Assembly: GCF_037975245.1 (NCBI RefSeq)
Contig: NC_092572.1
Location: forward strand, 6,587,501 to 6,651,500
DNA: 64,000 nucleotides
Direction of reading: 5' to 3'
Origin: Apostichopus japonicus
Taxonomy: Eukaryota > Echinodermata > Holothuroidea > Aspidochirotida > Stichopodidae
Shown here: positions 486 through 60,898 of the stretch, in pieces
How the letters are laid out: the number at the start of each line of letters is the position of its first letter
How positions within the stretch are numbered: position 1 is the first letter of the stretch
Made by a program: the position numbers and the translations under genes
Notes under the pieces: model-generated
Told to the model about the DNA's origin: nothing
The model's input: only the letters and a program-made list of their open reading frames with translations
The model's database searches: none

Positions 486-758
486 ATGGACCGATTATAG
501 CCTCTTCCAGATATGTTATGGAGAATGAGACATTTTCAGCTCAATGCTGTGTGACATTCACTTATTCCACCGAGCCAGTGAAGTATTTATGGTCTATTGG
601 CATTCCATTGGCTACGAAAATCAGAGCCAGTTTTGACGGAAATGTCATCTGCAGTAATGTGTCATTTACCGCAGTAAGAGGAGTTCACAACAAGTTACTT
701 GTGTGCACAATACAACACGAATTGAATTCTTCTACTCACAAGAGAATTAATGTAATGG
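486..758 (+). CDS. Gene 1 exon: Ig domain A
   Basis: The exon is 273 bp, with an acceptor at cttag and a donor at gtaagt, and phase 1 at both ends as usual for Ig-domain exons. It reads [20 protein letters not shown] and onward, with Cys pairs, a KYLWSIG tryptophan strand and several N-glycosylation sequons (NET, NVS, NSS). It has exactly the same length as the second Ig exon of gene 3 (55891-56163) and shares [33 protein letters not shown] and NSST-RINV with it, so the two exons are homologous. Confidence 0.85.
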
Positions 759-58200: not shown

Positions 58201-60898
58201 GTATATTTATTTTCTTTCTCTTTTTTAGAAAAGGTTTCGCGTAATGTCCTTCCTGTTGTCACAAGGTATTTGGAAAAATATAATTATTTTATCGTTTGGG
58301 AAGACGACCATTTGTGTGTCCAAACATGGGTACTCTGTAGGTTTGACATTGTCTTGGTCATTGTATGTATGTGATTTTAGATCTGTGAACATAGACAAAC
58401 GTCTAGTTAAAGTCCAAAGCTATTGGAGATATAAACATTAGGCCTACCTCTACTTAAGGTTATTGTTACACCGAAAATGAAACATATTTCGCATTCGTTA
58501 TATTCCATAATTAATGAGATATATGTGAAAATAATAATAAATCCTTAGAAATTTCCACCCTCTAGTTTTATGTGTTTGTTAGTCACACTTTAAAGTAATA
58601 AACTATCATATTTACATCTCTGCATGGTGAAATTTTGACTGCACTTTTTTGTCTTACGTGACAAAAAGAGAAAATAACGTATTTCTTATTTCGCTCGTAT
58701 GTATCATAGATTTAGTCGGTTGGTAAGGAATTCTATGCATTTACCAAGTAATTTTTATCGAGCCAGCAACAACCAGGCACCAACTCTTCCAGATGTTAGA
58801 AGTAGGTTCACAGATAATTTTGTTATGAGAGTAACGAGAATCATTTATTGTGTTCCAAGGCATTTGGATAAGAAAATGCAGTGACATTTACTACTAAGGG
58901 GTGCAAAGCTCTTCATGAACTGCATAGGAACTGCAAAATTAATGACGATGTTTAGCACATTAATGAGAGCCGTCAACCACTGTAGTTAAAAGTTTTTGTA
59001 AGAAATTCATATATAATTATGTTTAACGTCCAATATTCGATGATGGTTTTGTTTTTTAGTTAAATTAATTCTCAGTAATGAAGAAGGGTTGGTATCTGGC
59101 AACAATATGGTCATATCAGAGCCGAATTACCGCATCAAATATCTACTGAATGCCGAGACAGAGCTTCATGGTGCAGTTTAGCATGTACCTATAACTAGAA
59201 AACATTTTAGTTTTGGGAAAAAAATCAATTTTTGTAAATCAGTAGCAAAAGAATGGAATCAGTTTGCACAAATTCACGTACCATAGTTGATATTACTTGA
59301 CTATTGACCTCTTAGACGTAAGAATTAAAAGTAGATTCACCATTTACATACTCAATTGTTATACTAGCGTGGATTCCAAAACCTTCCAGATGGTATCGTT
59401 CTAATTGTTAATTTTCATATATTTTTTTGTTTTGTATCGTGTGGACTTTGATGTATATTGATCTTTTATTTTCACATCTTTTAGAGGTTTTATATTCTTA
59501 TCACACATGGGCTGTCCTTACAAACTATCTACGAGAAATTAACGATAGGCCCATACACAGTAATACGCTTAGGCTTCTACCGGGTGTGGTCAACTTGCGG
59601 CCCTTAATCAATGCTCTTGGATTACGAAACGTGGTGTGAGAGCCGGCCAAAATAACCCACGGCCAGTCAATACTGTTTTAACTACAAGGAATGATTCAAG
59701 GACTTTCATCTCCACTCAACGTCCAGCAATGAATGACCGAGTGACCAAGTGTGGTATCATGCCATCTTAAATGTGTGCGGATGATGTAAACTCGGCTGCT
59801 GAATGCTACAATACTTCTTTGAAATGTATTCTTGATCGGAATGCATCTTTATAATAATATTGCCAAGTAATGGATATAGTTCCTCACCATAAATTGAAAA
59901 TCGTTCTAAAGAAATAAACAAATAATATGGTTTTAACAAATGTTTATTCCCCTTGGATTTAACAGATATCCCTGGTTTTAGTAGCAATATCCAAATAGAT
60001 CAGTCGTTGGACCCATATGAAGAGTAAGTGTGGCAACTATTCATTGGTTTTAATCATTACTTTGATGTATCGAAACCGAACTTTGAAAAACAACTTAAAC
60101 AAGCAATTGGGAAGGTTAAGAAGTGTTAATGTTAATAACGAGAGGTAAACAAACAACACTTGGCCTTACTATTGTCAATGTCTTAGTTTACATTATGCTT
60201 GGATTTTATCAAATAAGGTACCGGAAGTCTATGTGAACCCAATATCGGTCTACATAATTAATATTTTCTTCAGCTTATAGAAAACATATATTCTGATAAA
60301 CACGTAGGTGATTAAAGCACAACACTGTGTGGTGTGGTGGAAACGTAACTTTTACATCTTCTCGGGCATGTATCATCCCCGACGATTAATATCTTCAAAC
60401 CAACAGGGATAATCGAATTGGGCAGTACCAAATTCTTAGTTACCATACGATTGCATTACGGAGTCACAGACAGGTGATGTGTGATAACAAAAATATATAG
60501 ATTTTCTTCTGTGACTGTGTAACGTTTATAAATAACCAAGAGTCTCGTAAGTAAAGTTAATTATTATATTTTATGTATGATATATATCATATAAAGTGTA
60601 ATATTTTTTTTCAATAACGAATGAATGCAGACTTCCAAGCAACGGCGTGGATGAAGGAGAAGAACATACATTGGACCTCAACCTCTCCAACGAAGTTGCC
60701 AGTTATGCCATCATTGAAAACAATAGGTAAATTGCTCTGGAATTGTATTTAAATGTAAAGGTACTGTTGGTTAGTCTCAACGAAGTGTTCTAAAACAATT
60801 TACAAAGTCCATGTTTATAATTATTTTATTTCTTCGTTCTTGTTTTTTACATTTATTTCGTTTTATCGTCTTTTCTCTTTAGAGTTGCAGGACTTTAA
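55134..60898 (+). CDS. Gene 3: three-Ig transmembrane receptor with short tyrosine-motif tail, no kinase
   Basis: Predicted exons: 55134-55212 (signal peptide), 55458-55784 (Ig1), 55891-56163 (Ig2), 56794-57101 (Ig3), 57402-57506 (TM), perhaps 58229-58265, then 59966-60023, 60631-60726 and 60883-60898 (stop). The product is a type I membrane protein of roughly 420 residues. Its tail carries PYEEL and SYAII, two YxxL/I sites of the kind bound by SH2 proteins when phosphorylated; neither fits the strict ITIM consensus at position -2. Ig2 is homologous to the first Ig exon of gene 1. Two problems remain: Ig3 is 308 bp, one short of a multiple of three, and the exon after the TM helix does not fit in phase without another exon or another donor. 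The gene may therefore be recently damaged, or the assembly may hold a base error. Receptor role inferred from architecture. Confidence 0.7.
55458..55784 (+). CDS. Gene 3 exon: Ig domain 1
   Basis: This 327-bp exon has phase 1-1 borders (acceptor tcacag, donor gtattt). It contains FPVELTCSFAF, YLVSWNKNGVNLV, ATLRIQDVSFDDAGEYSCR and ends WKLVVQ. The DDAGEYSC motif makes it a confident V/I-set Ig domain. Confidence 0.9.
55891..56163 (+). CDS. Gene 3 exon: Ig domain 2
   Basis: This 273-bp exon has phase 1-1 borders (acceptor tctcag, donor gtgagt). It is the same length as 486-758 of gene 1, with many identical residues ([33 protein letters not shown]). It is a paralogous domain. Confidence 0.88.
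56794..57101 (+). CDS. Gene 3 exon: Ig domain 3, with apparent 1-base frame break
   Basis: The acceptor is at tttcag and the donor at gtgagt. The bulk reads GGYQVVIECATDGHPIPDVF and later EEAYRCRANNTFRYF, an Ig domain with both cysteines. Entered in phase 1 as the previous exon requires, the frame hits TAG at about 56850; the good frame starts only after the G run at 56837-56841. All other Ig exons here are multiples of three; this one is 308 bp. Confidence 0.7.
57402..57506 (+). CDS. Gene 3 exon: transmembrane segment
   Basis: This 105-bp exon has phase 1-1 borders (acceptor attcag, donor gtaagt). The helix IICVFVASVIIVALLVTF is followed by RYHQ. Confidence 0.88.
58229..58265 (+). CDS. Gene 3 candidate basic exon after the TM helix
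   Basis: After a strong pyrimidine tract and ttttag, phase 1 gives KKVSRNVLPVVT and then donor gtattt, leaving phase 2, exactly as in the small post-TM exons of genes 1 and 2. No partner exon entering in phase 2 was found. A nearer donor (tcgc|gtaatg, ending at 58240) would leave phase 1 and join 59966 directly. Confidence 0.5.
58690..59640. other. Intron with unidentified open frames
   Basis: Frames at 58699-58884 and 59427-59639, and a stretch near 59180-59280 reading ITRKHFSFGKKINF..AKEWN, vaguely resemble LINE C-terminal text but are too decayed to call. Confidence 0.3.
59966..60023 (+). CDS. Gene 3 cytoplasmic exon with PYEE
   Basis: This 58-bp exon has an acceptor at taacag and a donor at gtaagt, and runs from phase 1 to phase 2. 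It encodes IPGFSSNIQIDQSLDPYE. With the next exon it creates the YEEL motif across the junction. Confidence 0.7.
60631..60726 (+). CDS. Gene 3 cytoplasmic exon with YAII
   Basis: This 96-bp exon runs from phase 2 to phase 2 (acceptor atgcag, donor gtaaat). It encodes LPSNGVDEGEEHTLDLNL, then SNEVASYAIIENN. It is acidic and serine-poor, with one tyrosine in a YxxI context. Confidence 0.75.
60883..60898 (+). CDS. Gene 3 terminal coding exon
   Basis: After a strong acceptor (tctctttag), phase 2 completes Arg and reads VAGL then TAA at 60896-60898. The 3' UTR follows; no canonical AATAAA is seen close by (one at about 62541 is far). Confidence 0.65.

Follow-up and report, generated by a model that had tools for sequence, protein, structure and literature searches.

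How do neighboring receptor genes come to share an outer half and yet end differently inside the cell? The question is raised by a 64,000-nucleotide (nt) stretch of the genome of the holothurian Apostichopus japonicus (NCBI RefSeq assembly GCF_037975245.1, contig NC_092572.1, hereafter C12, positions 6587501–6651500), which we call the window. An initial annotation had placed on its + strand a cluster of three immunoglobulin (Ig) receptor genes with one exterior plan and three cytoplasmic endings: a degenerate kinase (gene 1), a coiled coil (gene 2), and a short YxxL/I tail (gene 3). The reading we favor, with a probability of roughly 0.6, is that the window is part of a large, fast-turning Ig receptor array made by the exchange of exon modules through phase-1 introns. 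Genes like gene 1 are called type A here, those like gene 2 type B, and those like gene 3 type C. The genome searches covered 671,581,487 bases in 35 contigs and scored the best candidates alone, so the counts are lower bounds. Judged by eye, COX1 of the mitochondrial contig translates sensibly with the echinoderm code. For exon borders, phases, and frames we relied on a simple splice-site score and on the comparison of copies.

The search for further paralogs that the initial annotation had proposed was successful in the same cluster, at 14 Mb on C12, and on C19, and the cluster proved to be far larger than the three genes first described. It comprises 18 genes, all on the + strand, over about 430 kb (C12:6.35–6.78 Mb), 12 of them A/C genes and six B genes, in the order C B A A A A B A B A A B C B A A A B. 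Ten of the A/C genes are of type A (gene 1 and nine sisters), which combine the outer Ig exons D1 and D2 with a membrane-proximal Ig exon (Igx), a transmembrane (TM) exon, and a pseudokinase, its loop exon being found in eight of the ten; the other two, gene 3 and its paralog C1 at C12:6.353 Mb, are of type C, with other Ig exons, a TM exon, and a Tyr tail. The D2 exon gave at least 79 matches at E ≤ 1 (76 on C12, of which 12 are inside the cluster at 6.35–6.75 Mb, and three weak ones on C11), D1 of gene 3 at least 55 at E ≤ 0.1 (46 on C12, twelve of these inside the cluster, and six on C19), and the second Ig exon of gene 2 at least 38 (six in the cluster, eleven at 13.99–14.62 Mb, and seven on C19). 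A/C-like and B-like genes thus recur together in three clusters, at 6.35–6.78 Mb and 14 Mb on C12 and on C19. Their alternation exceeded that of shuffled orders when the three clusters were combined (40 runs vs. a mean of 30.2, p = 0.0026) and was weak in each cluster alone (p = 0.073, 0.096, and 0.045); in this test the 14-Mb and C19 lists were the + strand D1 and D2 matches merged by hand, and two C19 D1 matches 3 kb apart were counted once. A type B gene tends to close each A/C block. The alternating set on C19, at 10.38–11.12 Mb, consists of D1-type and B-type Ig genes with 39–50% identity to those of the window.

The exchange of modules was visible in the outer exons of the ten A genes. 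A tree of the Ig exons had been suggested as a check, and the D1 and D2 trees conflict, which points to exon exchange: the neighbor A0 groups with gene 1 and A_6426 in the D1 tree (0.999) and with A_6752 in the D2 tree (0.992). The synonymous divergence (dS) between gene 1 and A0 is 0.05 in D1, with the same signal peptide, and 0.28 in D2; between gene 1 and A1 it is 0.29 in D1 and 0.05 in D2. The introns of gene 1 are about 85–93% alike over kilobases with those of A1 and A3, and 70–85% alike with those of A0. The unit formed by A0 and the type B gene B0 lacks the DNA that carries the kinase in gene 1. A0 itself (window coordinates −58000..−50000, C12:6.53 Mb) is an A-type gene without the DNA that holds the kinase exons, and its juxtamembrane exon is apparently frame-shifted, so that the gene would end differently. 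The constraint on D1 and D2 appears to be loose: the ratio of nonsynonymous to synonymous differences (pN/pS) was 0.67 for D1 (interval 0.46–1.00) and 0.66 for D2 (0.40–1.09), and the nonsynonymous divergence (dN) exceeded dS in 3 of the 45 D1 pairs and in 21 of the 45 D2 pairs.

The inner half of type A is best seen in gene 1, whose exons are as follows (all on the + strand; negative coordinates lie upstream of the window).

−513..−435, +, signal peptide, upstream of the window start
−314..6, +, D1, running across the window start
486..758, +, D2 ("CCV" Ig), phase 1-1; from copy comparison, 61% identity to D2 of gene 3
2327..2647, +, membrane-proximal Ig exon Igx, copy 1, phase 1-1; Pfam C2-set_2, E = 3.2e-4
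3878..4198, +, Igx copy 2, protein identical to copy 1
5432..5752, +, Igx copy 3, protein identical to copy 1
10461..10556, +, TM exon, phase 1-1; similar in A1, A3, and the C16 relative
11037..11061, +, tiny exon, 25 nt, phase 1 to 2; 25-nt counterpart on C16
11404..11504, +, juxtamembrane exon, phase 2 to 1; Tyr variable among copies (NGYAHV, NRYTHV, NRSTHV)
11994..12176, +, kinase exon k1 (with a GEGTIT stretch; the VIAK Lys aligns with the β3 Lys of FGFR1)
12618..12728, +, k2 (MKEI); its Glu may be the αC Glu, which the PDB alignment puts elsewhere
12949..13115, +, k3, pseudokinase exon, from copy comparison
13602..13721, +, k4, dead catalytic loop (HPGLSARK ... DFW), from PDB alignment and paralogs
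14206..14317, +, k5 (WLAPE, DVWSFG), from PDB alignment
15011..15107, +, k6, with an apparent GC donor (/GCAAGT, the slash marking the exon end), from phase and alignment
15399..15501, +, k7, pseudokinase exon, the last exon identified

With the corrected exons, the kinase fold was recognized at E = 6e-50 (Pfam PF07714), and k1–k7 join in phase provided that the k6 donor is GC. Against kinases of known structure, HRDLAARN has become HPGLSARK and DFG has become DFW; the β3 Lys and APE are kept, and the αC Glu is uncertain. The motifs of active kinases, HRDxxxxN and DFG, are thus replaced in gene 1 by HPGxxxxK and DFW, and the degenerate kinase of the initial annotation stands in both fold and loop. 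Gene 1 as predicted combines the features of a receptor tyrosine pseudokinase, namely a TM receptor, a kinase fold, and the loss of catalytic residues. The loop of the C16 relative is identical to that of gene 1, and a relative on chromosome C1, at 42–50% identity in the longer exons, has HPGLMTRK and DFW. In the whole genome the k4 exon had at least 115 matches at E < 0.01 among the best 150 of 230 candidates, and 86 of these 115 fall on two chromosomes, C12 and C16, that together account for 12% of the genome. When 20 loop exons were picked by hand to span ten chromosomes (two of them are identical), all 20 had HP and Lys for Asn, with DFW or another non-DFG triplet; because the query was a dead loop, this speaks for constancy inside the family and not for its share of all kinases.

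Kinases that look competent are also present in the genome. At other kinase loci (C17, C18, C19, C21, C22, C4, and C9), seven of seven exons keep Asp, Asn, and DFG, five with the loop HGDLAARN and two with HRDLAARN; the HGDLAARN...DFG loop of the five array exons is unusual and probably competent. Among eight further kinases, seven loops were readable, six of them with Asp, Asn, and DFG, and one kinase shows no loop. Tandem arrays of kinase exons lie at C17:13.17–13.61, C18:8.70–8.85 and 13.97–14.26, C19:8.83–9.13, and C21:13.30–13.48 Mb. The seventh readable loop, of a kinase at C8:28.49 Mb (L005) in an open frame of 1857 residues, is HADLAARN, and DFG is absent; this kinase presumably resembles PTK7 and would add another kind of receptor pseudokinase to the genome.

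Between gene 1 and the C16 relative, dN/dS was 0.22 for the kinase and 0.80 for Igx; the loop exon had the lowest value of all exons, 0.05 (dN 0.045, dS 0.90). Between gene 1 and A1 the ratio was 0.49 for the kinase and 0.96 for the ectodomain, and between gene 1 and A3 it was 0.43 and 0.68. On sequence evidence, we judge the kinase of gene 1 to be catalytically dead and to be kept dead. The dead kinase family is large in this genome, and its size and constancy are new within the open-licence literature that we searched.

Kinase expansions have been reported in this species before. According to the portions of these papers available to us, the 2018 genome contained 38 "Fgfr" genes, most of which formed a clade of their own, with activity in gut regeneration and suppression in aestivation (PMC6018497), and the 2017 genome had "tyrosine-protein kinase receptor" among five expanded, clustered families, an expansion read as signal recognition and nervous system (PMC5638244); in the available main text of the latter, the words immunoglobulin and pseudokinase are absent. 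Both findings are cited in the parts seen of a 2026 preprint (PMC13228809). The parts examined of a study of the holozoan tyrosine kinome describe no echinoderm pseudokinase family (PMC8662651), and in the open-licence literature we recognized nothing that describes this receptor array or the dead-loop family. Gene 1 could be taken as a member of the reported FGFR expansion, that is, of a set of ordinary active receptor tyrosine kinases for gut regeneration. The findings of the two genome papers fit this explanation, and so does a phmmer search of the Protein Data Bank (PDB) with the gene 1 kinase, in which 38 of the best 60 of 1507 rows were FGFR1–4 (best E = 5.3e-36), though the top row was an EGFR entry (3e-47, two domains counted) and RET, Lck, HCK, and BMX were close behind. 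We nevertheless consider it unlikely: the catalytic Asp, Asn, and DFG Gly are gone in gene 1 and in all 20 sampled relatives, and the outer domains of gene 1 belong to an Ig family specific to the array. The published claims of an "FGFR expansion" in A. japonicus deserve a recheck, and kinase expansions counted from annotation and tied to regeneration in this commercially important species may include dead members.

A second explanation is that the array consists mostly of decaying duplicates and that the dead kinase is simply losing function. Several observations speak for it. A3 (window coordinates 107702–118259, C12:6.70 Mb) has stops in Igx and k7, has lost the 25-nt exon, and looks dead; gene 3 has a frame break; and the k4 loop exon, present in eight of the ten A genes of the cluster, was not found in the other two among the matches listed (best 150 of 230 candidates). 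Among neighbors the loop exon of gene 1 showed no special constraint: its dN/dS was 0.95 in the comparison with A1, from four changes, and 0.41 in that with A3. Other observations weigh against the reading that we favor. Coding exons of gene 1 after k7 were sought downstream and not found, and neither was an end of gene 2 past 42023. Positive selection on D1 and D2 was not supported, the pooled ratios being below 1 with intervals that reach 1.0 and 1.09. The consensus of the immunoreceptor tyrosine-based inhibitory motif (ITIM) is (I/V/L/S)xYxx(I/V/L); no canonical ITIM or activation motif (ITAM) was found in the tails of gene 3, C1, and gene 1, the −2 residue in gene 3 and C1 being D or A, and an ITAM/ITIM reading of the tails was rejected, as their tyrosines do not fit the consensus and the juxtamembrane Tyr of gene 1 is variable. 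The 20 dead loop exons were matches to a dead-loop query and the seven competent ones were matches to the Pfam kinase model, so that both samples are biased in favor of our reading. Finally, an Igx-like match at C12:11.258 Mb (E = 0.03, half a domain) lies within about 1 kb of a D2 match on the same strand. Decay as an account of the array as a whole still seems improbable to us, considering that the dead loop is the most constrained exon in the comparison with C16, that like substitutions are kept in the chromosome C1 relative and in the samples of ten chromosomes, and that the D1 and D2 frames are uninterrupted in every one of the cluster's 12 A/C genes.

We return to the array as a product of module exchange and to the three genes of the window, beginning with gene 3.

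55134..55212, +, signal-peptide exon MLLLKKLYATWIFLYVITAGLRQATA, read from the sequence; like the A-type signal peptides
55458..55784, +, D1 (V/I-type Ig), phase 1-1; Pfam and copies
55891..56163, +, D2 ("CCV" Ig), phase 1-1; copies
56800..57101, +, further Ig exon, frame-broken relative to C1 (one base missing); Pfam Ig_3, E = 0.12
57402..57506, +, TM exon, phase 1-1
58229..58265, +, tiny basic exon, 37 nt, phase 1 to 2
58710..58801, +, tail exon 2, phase 2 to 1
59966..60023, +, tail exon 3 (...DPYE/EL, the slash marking the exon end)
60631..60726, +, tail exon 4 (...VASYAIIENN)
60885..60942, +, last exon, acidic, with the stop

The exons of gene 2, of which the coil-like tail was judged from composition and conservation, are these.

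27442..27496, +, candidate signal-peptide exon, from sequence only
28208..28525, +, V-type Ig, phase 1-1; Pfam V-set, E = 2.3e-8
29235..29564, +, second Ig, phase 1-1; Pfam Ig_3, E = 1.6e-5 (below the cut-off), and ig, 24.1 bits (over the cut-off)
29882..29974, +, TM exon, phase 1-1; copy comparison
30206..30245, +, basic exon MANRKRRKNNKT, 40 nt, phase 1 to 2; the 14.2-Mb counterpart reads RRKKYAQKKK
34712..34744, +, coil-like mini-exon, 33 nt, phase 0-0; two 42-nt counterparts in B0
37209..37271, +, coil-like mini-exon, 63 nt, phase 0-0
37983..38024, +, coil-like mini-exon, 42 nt, phase 0-0; counterpart in the paralog B0
40546..40608, +, coil-like mini-exon, 63 nt, phase 0-0
41976..42023, +, coil-like mini-exon, 48 nt, phase 0-0; counterparts in B0 and B2

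The exon layout claimed for the three genes was upheld in outline. Each has phase 1-1 Ig exons (four in gene 1, two in gene 2, and two in gene 3), a phase 1-1 TM exon, and then a tiny exon that moves from phase 1 to phase 2, of 25 nt in gene 1, 40 nt in gene 2, and 37 nt in gene 3; the exon at 56800–57101 of gene 3, which had been counted as another phase 1-1 Ig exon, is one base short of its counterpart in C1. The tiny exon is unlikely to be a chance pick, because phase 1-to-2 counterparts occur in distant relatives (25 nt on C16; 34 nt in a type B gene on C12 at 14.2 Mb). Ig genes commonly have phase 1-1 Ig exons, so the phase layout alone is weak evidence, and the shared phases might be generic and the three genes unrelated neighbors, the more so as the V domain of gene 2 matches that of gene 3 at just 30% identity (E about 3e-4 in 184 kb). 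For genes 1 and 3 this is already refuted by the D1 (48% identity), D2 (61%), and similar signal peptide that they have in common, and A/C genes are accompanied by B genes in each of three clusters on two chromosomes; for the window as a whole we regard it as very unlikely. Genes 1 and 3 appear to be true paralogs in their outer half, and gene 2 a different receptor lineage of V and C2 domains, weakly related to them. The one exterior plan of the initial annotation therefore holds for genes 1 and 3 and only loosely for gene 2, because of the 30% match of its V domain, and the same values rule out gene 2 as a paralog with the ectodomain of the other two.

Gene 1 itself was correctly described as an Ig receptor and wrongly started, since its signal peptide and D1 precede or cross the first base of the window. 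The Pfam match of Igx copy 1 is just at the cut-off, and that of the C16 relative reaches E = 1.9e-8. The Igx exon is tandemly triplicated in 1.55-kb units (window 1486–6151) that are 97.8–98.9% alike; A1 has one Igx, and the triplication may be very recent or an assembly matter. The Ig nature of D2 rests on its cysteines, Trp, and position and on a sub-threshold Pfam match (E = 0.008). The 25-nt exon is absent from A3, and that of A0 has no good donor; other candidates for it in 10557–11403 were not open in the aligned copies, compared by eye.

In gene 3, the second extra Ig exon of C1 survives only as a remnant, and the exon at 56800–57101 is perhaps skipped or dead. As D2 and the TM exon are both phase 1-1, D2 could be spliced to the TM exon, and the gene could read signal peptide, D1, D2, TM, and tail, or it could be decaying. 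The YxxL/I tail was rightly seen in its tyrosines, DPYEEL and ASYAII, about 27 residues apart (C1 has DPYEEL, ASYAAV, and DDYIGI); its shortness was not upheld, as it spans five exons and ends at 60942 rather than 60898. No convincing homologs of the tail exons were found in a related gene at 14.2 Mb.

In gene 2 and B0, the lengths of five of the seven mini-exons are multiples of 21 (63, 42, and 63 nt in gene 2, and 42 and 42 nt in B0), the others being 33 and 48 nt; the coil is read from composition. A candidate Ig exon at 28975–29095 was discarded (one Cys, poor phases, and a stop in its B0 counterpart), and an automatic comparison of small exons among B copies returned one usable coil exon in three matches. 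A reverse transcriptase fragment lies inside gene 2 after the basic exon (31328–31936; Pfam RVT_1, E = 4.7e-16), and another lies between genes 1 and 2 on the − strand (21895–22413; RVT_1, 7.4e-6, below the cut-off).

The clearest case of module joining is gene 1, which appears to be a chimera of D1–D2 from one family and a traveling Igx–TM–kinase unit from another. At E ≤ 1, Igx had at least 39 matches: twelve belong to the cluster, and of the other 27 many lie on C16. Neighbors were counted among the dead-loop matches listed, the best 150 of 230 candidates. For all 27 Igx matches outside the cluster, a dead-loop exon lay within 15 kb downstream on the same strand in 16, and upstream in 5; random places on the same chromosomes had a mean of 0.16 and a maximum of 3 such neighbors in 2000 draws. 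For D2, 8 of the 12 matches inside the cluster had such a neighbor, vs. 1 of all 64 outside it on C12 (a first pass took 33 of these, with E up to 0.00172); the three D2 matches on C11, compared by eye, are megabases from any listed dead-loop exon. On C16, a 10-kb stretch holds in order Igx, a further open stretch, a TM exon, the 25-nt exon, a juxtamembrane exon, and the kinase; the open stretch after Igx was considered as a second Ig domain and was not recognized by Pfam. The gene at 14.2 Mb combines D1 and D2 with two further Ig exons and a TM exon, and has no kinase loop among the matches listed within 15 kb, which suggests that the plan without a kinase is the older one. The Igx-like and D2 pair at C12:11.258 Mb may be another mixture of the two families; a dead-loop match lies 7 kb upstream of it (C12:11.258–11.266 Mb).

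A signal-peptide-like exon precedes D1 in all four A genes checked (gene 1, A0, A1, and A3), and scarcely any is seen in the gap between D2 and Igx (gene 1 has a weak one; A1 and A3 have none), which favors one gene over two. That type A is an annotation artefact, a D1–D2 gene adjoining an Igx–TM–pseudokinase gene, is highly improbable, for although the two modules mostly occur separately elsewhere, D1, D2, and Igx are repeated in ten A genes with compatible order, strand, and phases, and the gap between D2 and Igx is as just described.

The claim that the ectodomain is kept and the signaling module swapped fits types A and C, which have the same D1–D2 and different inner parts, and fails for gene 2, which is of another lineage. 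The likeness to diversified immune receptors, also proposed at the outset, is borne out by the arrays, the exon mosaics, and the looser ectodomains; it does not extend to ITIM or ITAM motifs or to positive selection. An immune or self-recognition role for the array is likely. The ectodomains would bind ligands that vary, either microbial ones or markers of self. Type A would signal without catalysis, ligand binding bringing the dead kinase beside a competent partner, for which the receptor kinases of the HGD/DFG arrays are candidates; HER3 signals via competent partners, and type A might work in the same way, or else serve as a scaffold or act as a dominant-negative. The tail tyrosines of type C would be docking sites for SH2 proteins, and type B would cluster receptors through the coil. 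As a tentative proposal that could well be wrong, we suggest that this lineage has a recognition system of its own, whose diversified Ig ectodomains signal via a dedicated, conserved pseudokinase, one of a hundred or more dead receptor kinases concentrated on C12 and C16, with or against competent arrays, the modules being joined at phase-1 introns. Such a system would parallel, in an animal, kinase/decoy-kinase recognition, and dead receptors would then account for parts of the published "FGFR expansion for regeneration."

Diversified Ig receptors and receptor pseudokinases are both known kinds; their union is new within the open-licence literature searched. Paired receptors such as KIR, LILR, SIRP, and CEACAM are likewise tandem, variable Ig genes with a shared ectodomain and differing cytoplasmic ends, features that types A and C also show, but here the ends are a pseudokinase or a Tyr tail without the ITIM or ITAM consensus. 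The Hydractinia Alr complex, likened by anatomy only, is also an invertebrate tandem Ig family with exon exchange; we know of no pseudokinase ends in it. Expanded receptor families of echinoderms are usually read as TLR, NLR, SRCR, or FREP arrays; here an Ig receptor array took up a dead kinase as its inner half. Ten close paralogs, two without a kinase loop exon found, form a natural test set for pseudokinase receptor signaling.

The human receptor tyrosine pseudokinases (HER3, PTK7, ROR1/2, RYK, EphB6, EphA10, and STYK1), in the parts of the source available to us (PMC13259870), are like gene 1 single-pass proteins with a kinase fold without catalytic residues, and PTK7 also has an Ig ectodomain. 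Unlike gene 1, none of the eight in Table 2 of that source has HPGxxxxK or DFW; PTK7/CCK4 has HKDxxxxN and ALG. They are eight genes, compared with at least 115 loop-exon matches at E < 0.01 here, dead in those that were read. The seven Ig domains of PTK7/CCK4 are not found in gene 1, which has D1, D2, and three Igx copies.

Chicken BG genes, as described in the available part of one study (PMC4046983), resemble the array in being tandem, fast-evolving Ig genes with hybrids and two lineages (B12 haplotype), and resemble type B in having a V-type Ig, a TM segment, and a long heptad-repeat tail presumed to be a coiled coil. They differ in having one V domain and tails of 21-nucleotide repeats, where type B has V and C2 domains, a basic exon, and mini-exons of 33–63 nt. 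The comparison of gene 2 with butyrophilin and BG is by anatomy and the V-set model only; B30.2 was not seen in the gene 2 open frames listed, which stop short of the gene end.

Two minor observations concern the surrounding DNA. Long simple repeats rich in TA occur in the window at 6449–6742, 41409–41600, and 47700–48000, and an unplaced 31-kb contig (C29) carries several pieces of mitochondrial COX1 and COX2, part of them rearranged.

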